From contig JAGVOW010000021.1 in the NCBI GenBank assembly GCA_020052515.1, positions 1-38,823 of the forward strand: 38,823 nucleotides of DNA, written 5' to 3'. Of this stretch, positions 3,639 through 6,171 are shown piece after piece (the first letter of the stretch is position 1; each line of letters begins with the position of its first letter). Source of the DNA: Brevinematales bacterium. Lineage in GTDB: Bacteria > Spirochaetota > Brevinematia > Brevinematales > JAOACQ01. The position numbers and the translations under genes were made by a program. The notes under the pieces were generated by a model. That model saw only the letters and a list, made by a program, of their open reading frames with translations, ran no database searches and was not told where the DNA came from.

Positions 3639-3703
3639 AATTTATCCCCTCTCAAAAATTTTTATTGTAAAGATGTCAAAGGCAAATGTGCCGAAGGTTG
3701 AGC

Positions 3704-3756
3704 ATCGTACGGAGCCGCAGTGAGAACGGAGCGCAAGCGCTAACCCGCTGTTGTGC
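3704..3756 (-). other. attC-like site A (end of lipoprotein cassette)
   Basis: Minus-strand GC-rich imperfect palindrome in an AT-rich setting. It begins with GCACAAC-AGCGGG (3750-3756 and onward), like the RYYYAAC end of an integron attC, and ends with CTGCGGCTCCGTACGATG. The outer arms CATCGTAC (3703-3710) and GTGCGATG (3753-3760) pair over 8 bases with one wobble. It shares ACAACAGCGG at its 5' end with site B. The 3' box (GTACGAT) departs from GTTRRRY, as can happen where the last site meets chromosomal sequence. It lies about 50 bases after the lipoprotein stop codon, where a cassette attC is expected. Confidence 0.5.
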
Positions 3757-4332
3757 GATGGTGCAGATTTGGTAATTAACACTACTTGTTATAATTTATT
3801 CTAAAACTATTCAGCTACTACCTTGATAGCATTTATAAATACTATCTGCTTTTTCTTTCTTACCATTCGAAGCAGTTGAGAAATCATAATATAGCCCTGT
3901 TCCATCTGGTTCGATTATAAACGAATAGTTTCCACCATTTGACCCCCAATCCCAGCGATGGTTTAAACCGGCTCTTTGATAGTGTGTATATTCTCCAGAA
4001 TTTCCGCCATCGTAAAGAATAAATCCAATATTTTTAAACTTTTTTCCACCAAAGTAACCGATTTCCAGCAATATTGATTTTTCTGTCGAATAGTCATAAC
4101 AGTTCCATGAGATGAATCCTCCGACATCTTTTTCAGAAACTTTTTTATCATTAAGAATAATTGATCTTGGACCTGATTGGGGAGGTGATTCAGGGCGTGA
4201 TGTTAGTGAATTACATGAAATCAGTGAAATAAATAGTAATAAACTAATCAAATACCTGATTTTTTTATTCATGTTAACCTCCACTTTCTGAAGATATAAT
4301 TAAAATATAAAAATATCTGCACTTTCGCCTAA
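3710..4332 (-). mobile_element. Putative integron gene cassette carrying a lipoprotein gene
   Basis: The boundaries are inferred from the crossover points in sites B (G|TTAGGC, 4333/4332) and A (G|TAC, 3710). The cassette starts TTAGGCGAAAGTGCAGAT and carries attC end ATCTGCACCATCGCACAAC. These two ends (4315-4333 and 3750-3768) are inverted and match at 15 of 19 positions, including 8 perfect outer bases. In an excised circle they would sit next to each other and form the attC stem, the expected property of a real cassette. It holds one gene in the cassette orientation. No integrase is present in the window. Confidence 0.55.
3811..4272 (-). CDS. Small lipoprotein, cassette-borne, unknown function
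   Basis: This 153-residue protein has a signal peptide ending in the lipobox LISC (Cys20) and should be lipid-anchored in the envelope. I chose the ATG at 4272 because GGAGG lies 6 bases upstream; an in-frame GTG four codons earlier overlaps that ribosome binding site. After a short Ser/Pro-rich linker the mature part has an aromatic beta-rich domain with WNCYDYSTEKSILLEIGYF and LNHRWDWGSNGGNYSF followed by GTGLYYDFS. Cysteines occur in WNCYDY and near the end (YKCYQ) and may form a disulphide. I do not recognise a named family. It is the only gene between attC-like sites B and A, which fits a single-gene integron cassette. Confidence 0.75.
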   Translation of the reverse strand: MNKKIRYLISLLLFISLISCNSLTSRPESPPQSGPRSIILNDKKVSEKDVGGFISWNCYDYSTEKSILLEIGYFGGKKFKNIGFILYDGGNSGEYTHYQRAGLNHRWDWGSNGGNYSFIIEPDGTGLYYDFSTASNGKKEKADSIYKCYQGSS

Positions 4333-4434
4333 CGGCCGCGGACAGACGCTGGCAGTCTAACCCACTGCGGTTTTCTTCCACGTTCTTCATTCCCGCAGTC
4401 TTTTCTTACTGCTGGCGTTTGTCCGCTGTTGTAC
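4327..4434 (-). other. attC-like site B (end of PIN cassette)
   Basis: This is a 108-base imperfect palindrome on the minus strand. The 5' box is GTACAAC (4428-4434, one mismatch to RYYYAAC) and the 3' box is GTTAGGC (4327-4333, perfect GTTRRRY). The long stem pairs 4338-4356 with 4408-4426 at 16 of 19 positions. An inner stem pairs ACTGCGG (4364-4370) with CCGCAGT (4393-4399). The bulged outer boxes, long stem and variable centre are the layout of an integron attC. The site overlaps the last codons of the antitoxin-like gene, as cassette genes often do. Confidence 0.62.
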
Positions 4435-4611
4435 GCCGTGTTCGCGACTGTCGGATTTTATAGACTTCCAATTTTTACCAACTCTGCTTGCCATATCATT
4501 TATTTTATTTATCATCTCATTGATAGATAAATCTTTCACTTCATTGTATATTTCATCTTTCCAATTCCAAACTTTTATTAATGAATTTGATTCCTTAAAA
4601 ATCTTTATCAT
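4387..4611 (-). CDS. Small antitoxin-like protein next to PIN toxin
   Basis: A 74-residue protein whose start lies within the 3' end of the PIN gene (17-base overlap). The ATG at 4611 has GGAGG 6 bases upstream; a TTG one codon earlier is less likely. The sequence VWNWKDEIYNEVKDLSINEM resembles the small helical proteins commonly encoded next to PIN-domain genes and thought to act as their antitoxins. The last 15-20 residues (RTNASSKKRLRE) are encoded by the attC-like site, so the C-terminus was probably set by cassette formation. Antitoxin function is inferred from position, size and overlap only. Confidence 0.6.
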   Translation of the reverse strand: MIKIFKESNSLIKVWNWKDEIYNEVKDLSINEMINKINDMASRVGKNWKSIKSDSREHGVQQRTNASSKKRLRE

Positions 4612-5077
4612 CAAGAACCTCCAATGGGGATAGTAATCTTAGAGGATAATTATATCCCATCTTTAAATTTTCAATAATTATTTTATGTTCTTTGTTCACA
4701 TTTGCCAAGTGTTTAAAATTCCAGGATAATAAAATATCCATTTCATAGTATGTTGCATAACTGATATGAAGTGCATCTTCAACTTTCTTTACTGGGATAA
4801 CACCGTTGCCAATATAAATTTCAGCAATATTATTCAGTTCATCAAATTTATTCAATTTAATAATTCCAAATCTTTTAGAAATTTCAAGCATTCTTTTTCT
4901 AGAAACCGGATCTTTATCTTTATTAATTTCTAATAAAACAATGTCAGAAATATATAAGTTATAATTCTCTGAATAGTTTTCAAAAAAATCAATGGTAATG
5001 TTTTTAAACTCAGGAGAATCATCTGCAAAATAAAAACTTATAACGCTTGTGTCTAAATATATTTTTAATCTATTCAT
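4595..5077 (-). CDS. PIN-domain protein, VapC-like ribonuclease toxin
   Basis: This 160-residue protein matches the PIN fold. It begins with YLDTSVISFYF (acidic Asp9), has a central Asp/Glu region (SDIVLLEINK) and carries VEDALHISYATYYEMDILLSWNFKHLAN. The latter holds the conserved Asp and the WNFKHL segment of this PIN subgroup. PIN proteins are Mg2+-dependent RNases, and many are toxins of type II toxin-antitoxin pairs. The C-terminal PLRLLSPLEVLDD is typical for members paired with a small downstream antitoxin, and the next gene overlaps its end. It lies in the putative cassette upstream of attC-like site B. Toxin-antitoxin modules are common cargo of integron arrays, where they help stabilise the array. 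Confidence 0.82.
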   Translation of the reverse strand: MNRLKIYLDTSVISFYFADDSPEFKNITIDFFENYSENYNLYISDIVLLEINKDKDPVSRKRMLEISKRFGIIKLNKFDELNNIAEIYIGNGVIPVKKVEDALHISYATYYEMDILLSWNFKHLANVNKEHKIIIENLKMGYNYPLRLLSPLEVLDDKDF

Positions 5078-5125
5078 GATAAAATTATAAATCTTTTATT
5101 TTATAAAATCACTTTTTTAAATAGA

Positions 5126-5386
5126 TTATTTTTTTAAAAACGTCGCGAACATGGCGTCCGTAAAAGTCTCAACCTTCTTAATCCTGTTATGCCCTGCCAT
5201 CAGAGCGCACAAAATTCCCGTAATAATTTGCCCGAATGAAAATTTCTGGTTACAATATTCCCGCGCTGGAATATTTTTTTTGAGCATTTGATTCAACCCA
5301 ATCTTTTCCAGAAATACCAGCACGGGATAAATCCCGCTCGCGTTGCTCAAATCCTGCGCCGTGAAACCCACTTTGATATTTTTCAT
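5126..5386 (-). pseudogene. IS1380-family transposase, N-terminal fragment
   Basis: Only 86 residues remain of a protein that is normally over 400. The N-terminus MKNIKVGFTAQDLSNASGIY, followed by LVFLEKIGLNQML and FSFGQIITGILCALMAGHNR, has the typical start of IS1380-type DDE transposases. The reading frame stops at 5126, before any of the catalytic DDE core. No continuation was seen in the other frames towards the PIN gene. The last codons (about 5126-5166) coincide with the inverted arm of the PIN cassette, so the fusion point with the cassette probably lies near 5160. Non-functional. Confidence 0.75.
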
Positions 5387-5527: not shown

Positions 5528-5794
5528 TTAAGAAGCTTTTCTTAAAAGTTTAATATCTGGTTTAATATGACTAATACCAATCATTCCATCAATGGATAAA
5601 TCTTCATCTATATCAGGCCAATGAATTCCATAACCGGAAGGAGATATTTGATAATTCTGCTTGGTCTTTAAATCCGCATTAAATAATTTTTTCGATTCTT
5701 TTTTCAAATCTATTTTATAATTCTCTCCATCAATCGCAATTTCCATATAGGAATCGAAAAATTTAATTTTTCCAATTTTATGAATCGGCTTCAT
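5528..5794 (-). CDS. DUF2442 protein, putative antitoxin-like partner
   Basis: This 88-residue protein matches DUF2442: a small beta-rich region (FFDSYMEIAIDGENYKIDL) followed by the hallmark GYGIHWPDIDEDLSIDGMIG. I start it at 5794 because that Met follows a GGGGG ribosome binding site and fits the family; an upstream in-frame Met at 5851 lies inside the DUF4160 gene. The gene overlaps DUF4160 by 17 bases, and such pairs recur in many bacteria and have been proposed as toxin-antitoxin-like modules on genomic grounds. No activity is established from the sequence. Confidence 0.75.
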   Translation of the reverse strand: MKPIHKIGKIKFFDSYMEIAIDGENYKIDLKKESKKLFNADLKTKQNYQISPSGYGIHWPDIDEDLSIDGMIGISHIKPDIKLLRKAS

Positions 5795-6047
5795 TTCCGT
5801 CCCCCTTTTTGTATTTCTTCCATTCAGATACAATATAATCAAAATTTTCAAATATAATTTTTCTTAATTGCCTTCTATCTGATGGTGATAAATTATATTC
5901 ATATTCTGTTATAATATCAAAATTAACAGTATCAATCCAATATTTACTTTCCTTCTCGGCTTTTTGACAATGGATATGAATTGGCTCATTATTTTCATTT
6001 GAATAAAAAAAGAATCTCCAACCGAAAAGCAATAATATTGTTGGCAT
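5778..6047 (-). CDS. DUF4160 protein, first of a DUF4160/DUF2442 pair
   Basis: An 89-residue protein with the DUF4160 pattern MPTILLLFGWRFFFYSNENN followed by EPIHIHCQKAEKESKYWID. A helical part follows (LSPSDRRQLRKIIFENFDYIVSEWKKY). The His-x-His in PIHIHC is the family hallmark. The start at 6047 has GAGGG upstream and agrees with the usual MPTI beginning; the longer reading frame adds 19 residues without family similarity. A TATAAT at 6106-6111 may be its -10 box, without a clear -35. It overlaps the DUF2442 gene. A second, different pair lies at 10446-11089. Confidence 0.75.
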   Translation of the reverse strand: MPTILLLFGWRFFFYSNENNEPIHIHCQKAEKESKYWIDTVNFDIITEYEYNLSPSDRRQLRKIIFENFDYIVSEWKKYKKGDGNEADS

Positions 6048-6171
6048 AAAGCCCTCTTTTCCCCTCTTTTTTGCATGAAAGGGGGATGAGTTTTCATTCA
6101 GCAATATTATACACCCATTTTAAAAATAGGGGAAAATTTCGCAAATTTTTAAAAACACAGTTTTTAAAAAA

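Follow-up and report, generated by a model that had tools for sequence, protein, structure and literature searches.

Integrons with an IntI integrase, such as the sedentary chromosomal integrons (Vibrio cholerae IntI4, PDB 2a3v), combine a tyrosine recombinase, an attI site beside the enzyme that is used by different cassettes, and a same-direction array of cassettes with edges at GTT and hairpin sites (attC) containing R and L boxes. The additional domain of IntI has been reported to be necessary for integron activity, and an enzyme without it should therefore not handle classical attC sites. The I2 helix is believed to be the means by which IntI acquired single-strand recombination, and intermediates have been stated to be lacking (PMC7790495). 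In classical attC sites, the central spacer is unpaired and the strand is selected by extrahelical bases (PMC2727003). Clusters of two or more attC sites within 4 kb with no integrase nearby (CALINs) are common and are thought to arise from cassettes of a true IntI that acts in trans or has since been lost (PMC8618304). Because the IntI domain is a requirement of standard integron searches (PMC9668308), such searches would overlook systems without I2 or class them as CALINs.

Here we describe two minus-strand modules in a window of 38.8 kb (38,823 nucleotides), which is contig C21 of a 2.6-Mb spirochaete genome (G000) whose family relative is a Brevinematales MAG. The modules have a truncated IS1380 transposase to their left and recA to their right. 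With good confidence, we interpret them as cassettes of an integron-like system run by an IntI relative with a HARP-like domain at its N terminus and no I2. The relevant features of the window are:

3674..3768, minus strand: site A, a truncated attC-like site with R'', L'' and part of the loop, without the L' box and the 3' spacer
3750..4333, minus strand: body of cassette 2, with start GTTAGGCGAAAGTGCAGAT and end ATCTGCACCATCGCACAAC, ends complementary at 15/19 positions and an A/G difference at position 11
3811..4272, minus strand: small lipoprotein gene (ORF to 4284 with a GTG start), no Pfam family found
4315..4448, minus strand: site B, an attC-like hairpin with R'' GTACAAC at 4434-4428 and R' GTTAGGC at 4333-4327, matched by a covariance model
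4387..4614, minus strand: 75-aa ORF that overlaps the PIN gene and stops within site B
4428..5157, minus strand: body of cassette 1 (the PIN cassette), with 5' arm 5157-5142 and 3' arm 4448-4433, complementary at 15/16 positions
4595..5077, minus strand: PIN-domain protein of 160 aa (PF01850, 22.4 bits, slightly below the cut-off of 23.6)
5126..5386, minus strand: truncated IS1380-type transposase ORF (NF033539, E 2e-7, residues 5-81 of 86)

The 75-aa ORF had no family match and is a possible antitoxin of the PIN protein. Rfam yielded no match within the first 12 kb, and neither an attI-like motif in the window nor a recombinase on the 38.8-kb contig was found. Measured against the CALIN definition, the window holds one full site (B) and one truncated site (A). 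A DUF2442/DUF4160 gene pair at 5528-6104, possibly a toxin-antitoxin-like module, adjoins the IS1380 remnant.

The complementarity of module ends on which a sequence-only reading had based its proposal of integron-like cassettes was reproduced in both modules (3750-3768 against 4315-4333, 15/19; 4433-4448 against 5142-5157, 15/16). Complementarity of at least 15/16 at a distance of 200-1500 bp occurs at just two independent places in the window, of which the second pair is one. The first pair is not significant by itself, with 247 overlapping 19-mer placements of at least 15 matches in the window, and carries weight because homologous cassettes occur elsewhere; its end signature was also seen in 45 oriented pairs from other genomes. 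The shared start of both palindromes, CCGCTGTTGT, occurs within the window only at 3745 and 4423, and the GTTAGGC end claimed for site B is present.

Site B reads R'' GTACAAC, a 1-nt spacer (A), L'' GCGGACA, a variable loop, L' TGTCCGC, a GGCC spacer and R' GTTAGGC. Since covariance model R1 includes the window site by construction, model R2 was built from sites of other genomes only, with no site of the window's genome in it. R2 matches site B at 4320-4442 on the minus strand (28.7 bits, E 1.3e-4), which supports site B as an attC-like hairpin, and it also finds two sites on contig C20 of the same genome. Site A was matched by neither model. It is 78% identical over 87 bp to C57:112-198, with weaker homology to C20:128-204; it belongs to the same repeat family but is longer than claimed, with homology that extends to about 3674 and stops short of the L' box. 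Paired R and L boxes with GTT in R' are present in site B but not in site A, where L' is missing. When sites A and B were compared by BLAST against relatives, C57 alone was clearly above noise; a match of site A on C67 (E 0.04) was rejected, as no cassette signature follows it.

The 5' end of the PIN cassette reads TACGGACGCCAT in place of the expected GTTGTACGCCAT and forms no G|TT boundary. The IS1380 homology of the adjoining ORF stops at about 5155, approximately where cassette 1 begins; in a search of the genome for an intact IS1380 copy that would fix this left junction, only a degraded copy was found.

Further sites of this kind, which the sequence-only reading had suggested looking for, occur in the same genome on contigs C20 and C57:

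C20:2170-3222, minus strand: tyrosine recombinase of 350 aa, with an attI-like site and then three cassettes on its 3' side
C20:2054-1574: third cassette, found by manual inspection
C20:1381-950: cassette with a small protein, ends 19/20 complementary, GTTATGTGTC[A/G]TTGTATTTT
C20:855-202: cassette with an HD-domain gene, ends 19/20 complementary, GTTAGGCGCC[A/G]TTGCCCCGC
C57:4231-4165: second attI copy, identical to the C20 attI
C57:4167-188: cassette of ~4 kb (locus L058), ends 19/21 complementary, with an N6-methylase gene (R-M type) and a 502-aa partner gene

A first scan for cassette ends with hard thresholds missed the third C20 cassette and the ~4-kb C57 cassette, both of which were recovered by hand. 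The putative attI, 67 bp long with repeats of the type ATATACGAAGT, sits between the C20 enzyme and the first cassette. Its one further copy in the genome, on C57, is 100% identical, C20 and C57 are unrelated outside the 67 bp, and the two copies are followed by different cassettes, each attached precisely at GTT. The arrangement looks like an attI with two independent cassette insertions, which resembles the use of attI in IntI integrons; here, unlike there, attI lies at the 3' end of the enzyme gene. The absence of an integrase therefore holds beside the window cassettes but not genome-wide, since a matching recombinase with attI and array is present on C20. No true IntI (TIGR02249) over cut-off was found in the window's genome, which has separate Xer-type proteins on C37 and C50. 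As a whole, the proposal of integron-like cassettes with attC-type sites is supported by the model match, the other sites and the GTT junctions, but has to be amended in that site A is truncated and the recombinase lies on C20.

The best NCBIfam score of the C20 enzyme is to XerA/NF040815 (216 bits, cut-off 220), followed by the integron integrase model, also under its cut-off. IntI4 ranks first in both the PDB sequence search and the structure search (model pLDDT 84.9), aligning only at 87-252 and 276-349. The distance from KGxKDR to HxLRH is 58-61 aa in all I2-less proteins measured, versus 99-100 in two true IntI of the phylum. Because the ~40-residue IntI-specific insertion (I2) is absent, the C20 recombinase is not an IntI. 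It shares the lack of this insertion with XerA, but differs from XerA in being accessory and patchy, in its extra N-terminal domain, in adjoining arrays and in coexisting with separate Xer-type proteins. The N-terminal 70 residues weakly match HARP (PF07443; Pfam best 22.1 bits against a cut-off of 25, 3/30 members matching), and the top Foldseek match of the region is the HARP domain of SMARCAL1 (4o66, probability 0.91 but E 0.064). HARP is a substrate recognition domain in SMARCAL1. In the tree, true IntI form one clade adjoining the I2-less enzymes. The placement of IntI inside the HARP-type integrases has an SH-aLRT of 87, but such nesting is not claimed, because the AU test does not reject a single clade of HARP-type integrases (p 0.576).

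A scan of GTDB genomes yielded 80 loci in Spirochaetota, Bacillota, Bacteroidota, Nitrospirota, Atribacterota, archaea and others. In an unbiased comparison of all 64 trinucleotides, GTT ranks first for inverted cassette-end pairs 3' of the enzyme (13 loci, versus 1 on the 5' side); without the restriction to the 3' side, the simple scan also returned numerous loci for other trinucleotides, and only with it did the signal become clear. Arrays at this position occur in many genomes and contain seven cassettes in 10 kb in Halanaerobium kushneri, five in Halanaerobacter jeridensis and six in a Spirochaetales MAG, and many loci have palindromic repeats ahead of their first GTT. The 5' end of a cassette is GTTAKRYGNNAT and the 3' end, in reverse complement, is GTTAKRYGNNGT. 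The A/G difference at position 11 is found in 43/45 cassette-end pairs, for which it was partly a selection criterion (positions 10-12 allowed), and is also visible in the unselected list.

Across the family, the sites fold at the junction as R'' - A - L'' ... L' - GGRAC - R'. The stem covaries (52 double-change cells versus 23.7 in shuffled data, with slid controls far lower), and the covariation lies in the L stem. The central spacer is 1x5 nt in 13/25 sites and close to that in most of the remainder, whereas it is about 5x6 in the one site compared from a true-IntI integron of the same phylum. The L stem shows a mismatch rather than a bulged base, and the classical extrahelical-base and central-spacer features are not seen. 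The suggestion of an attC type deviating from the classical one was thus borne out, but one base in the 5' box is not its main deviation; this lies in the 1x5-nt spacer, the end complementarity of about 20 bp and the conserved mismatch at position 11. Within the arrays of loci L090 and L102, the hairpin parts of sites are 93-96% alike, as in Vibrio superintegrons.

A precise cassette duplication is present in a relative, G211, a complete genome on one contig without IntI and with an I2-less enzyme. A 1424-bp cassette including its site occurs there twice, 25 kb apart, with 1421/1424 identical positions; identity starts exactly at the GTT after the shared site core and extends to the next GTT core, between unrelated flanks. 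Precise G|TT junctions are found in this duplicate and on C20/C57, but not at the 5' end of the PIN cassette. The G211 array (L221/L222, G211:C1:2030500-2067000) comprises at least eight cassettes, one of them duplicated, and the scan gave no pairs in its middle ~19 kb. Two Bacteroidota loci (L144, 11057-11997; L148, 11155-12095) share a 941-bp cassette (92.8%). Its gene part and hairpin appear to have separate histories, because the shared identity, which starts at GTT, ends 2 nt after AAC.

The sites also co-occur with the enzyme. In 296 Spirochaetota genomes, counted without regard to kinship, R2 sites were found in 32/72 genomes with an I2-less enzyme versus 17/224 without (Fisher p 1.4e-11); G000 itself drops out of this phylum-wide run owing to its stricter filters. 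In 12 genomes, sites and enzyme gene are no more than about 30 kb apart. On the other hand, 40/72 enzyme-bearing genomes yielded no site at the threshold used, while sites were found in 12 genomes with neither enzyme nor IntI.

These data bear on two other readings. The window could be a classical CALIN, with ordinary attC cassettes derived from a true IntI in trans or since lost and the I2-less recombinase being an unrelated Xer-like enzyme. CALINs are frequent, the window cassettes resemble them in having attC-like sites with no adjoining recombinase, and Spirochaetota do carry true IntI (over cut-off in 35/296 genomes). However, R2 sites are unrelated to IntI in the same genomes (p 0.41), and IntI over cut-off is absent from 14 of the 15 array-bearing genomes checked, including the window's genome and G211, the exception being L074, which also has a true IntI. 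The attI-like repeats and arrays directly 3' of the I2-less enzyme, and a spacer geometry unlike that of the true-IntI site, speak against this reading as well, and we regard it as improbable; unlike in a CALIN, a matching recombinase is present in the genome, where searches demanding the IntI domain would miss it. Far less probable still is that the palindromes are bidirectional terminators or repeats with incidental end complementarity. Both are GC-rich and located at gene ends, and the 15/19 pair, taken by itself, does not exceed chance in the window. Against this reading, complementary ends across 0.2-4 kb recur in arrays with fixed GTT and the A/G-11 signature, a cassette is precisely duplicated in G211, attI is re-used on C20 and C57, and site B matches the covariance model. 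A terminator or repeat is thus unlikely for the family and applies, if at all, to site A alone.

A refinement rather than an alternative is that the cassettes were captured elsewhere by the I2-less system and reached recA by transposition or rearrangement instead of recombinase insertion at a secondary site. The left edge abuts the truncated transposase without GTT and the right edge of site A is truncated, but no intact IS copy was found in the genome; we consider the chances of this route to be even.

Under the preferred reading of an I2-less integron-like system, each cassette would start at GTT and carry a gene followed by a hairpin site at its end. From linkage, co-occurrence and junctions, we infer that the I2-less enzyme catalyzes cassette movement. 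The C20 recombinase would join the cassette site, presumably as a folded single strand, to the double-stranded attI located immediately 3' of the recombinase gene; with cutting at G|TT, cassettes would line up in the direction of this gene. Excision would rebuild a longer hairpin, which would account for the complementary cassette ends, and the HARP-like domain may read this hairpin in place of I2. The window pair would have been left behind, or inserted, outside the platform, next to recA and the IS1380 remnant. It is probably an old, decayed and largely immobile two-cassette outlier, because site A lacks L' and the PIN cassette lacks a 5' GTT.

More tentatively, these systems may form a distinct and widespread integron class, in which I2-less, HARP-fused integrases near the IntI root have kept a pre-I2 state, the HARP-like domain reads the folded site instead of I2, and part of the CALINs without identifiable integrase is included. 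In the open-access papers searched, we found no description of I2-less enzymes with adjoining arrays. The occurrence of such enzymes at attI and arrays in cultured bacteria (Halanaerobium, Alkaliphilus) makes the question of the origin of I2 testable.

Recombinases without the N-terminal domain were also observed near cassettes. At locus L070 (G031:C15, 2396-7302), the cassettes lie 5' of an I2-less enzyme of this kind, as in classical integrons; the enzyme groups with IntI in the tree, the site beside it again has the short spacer form, and the genome also carries a true IntI. At locus L123 (305-4921), in a Bacillota MAG, cassette-like pairs occur near a recombinase of ~280 aa that also lacks the N-terminal domain.
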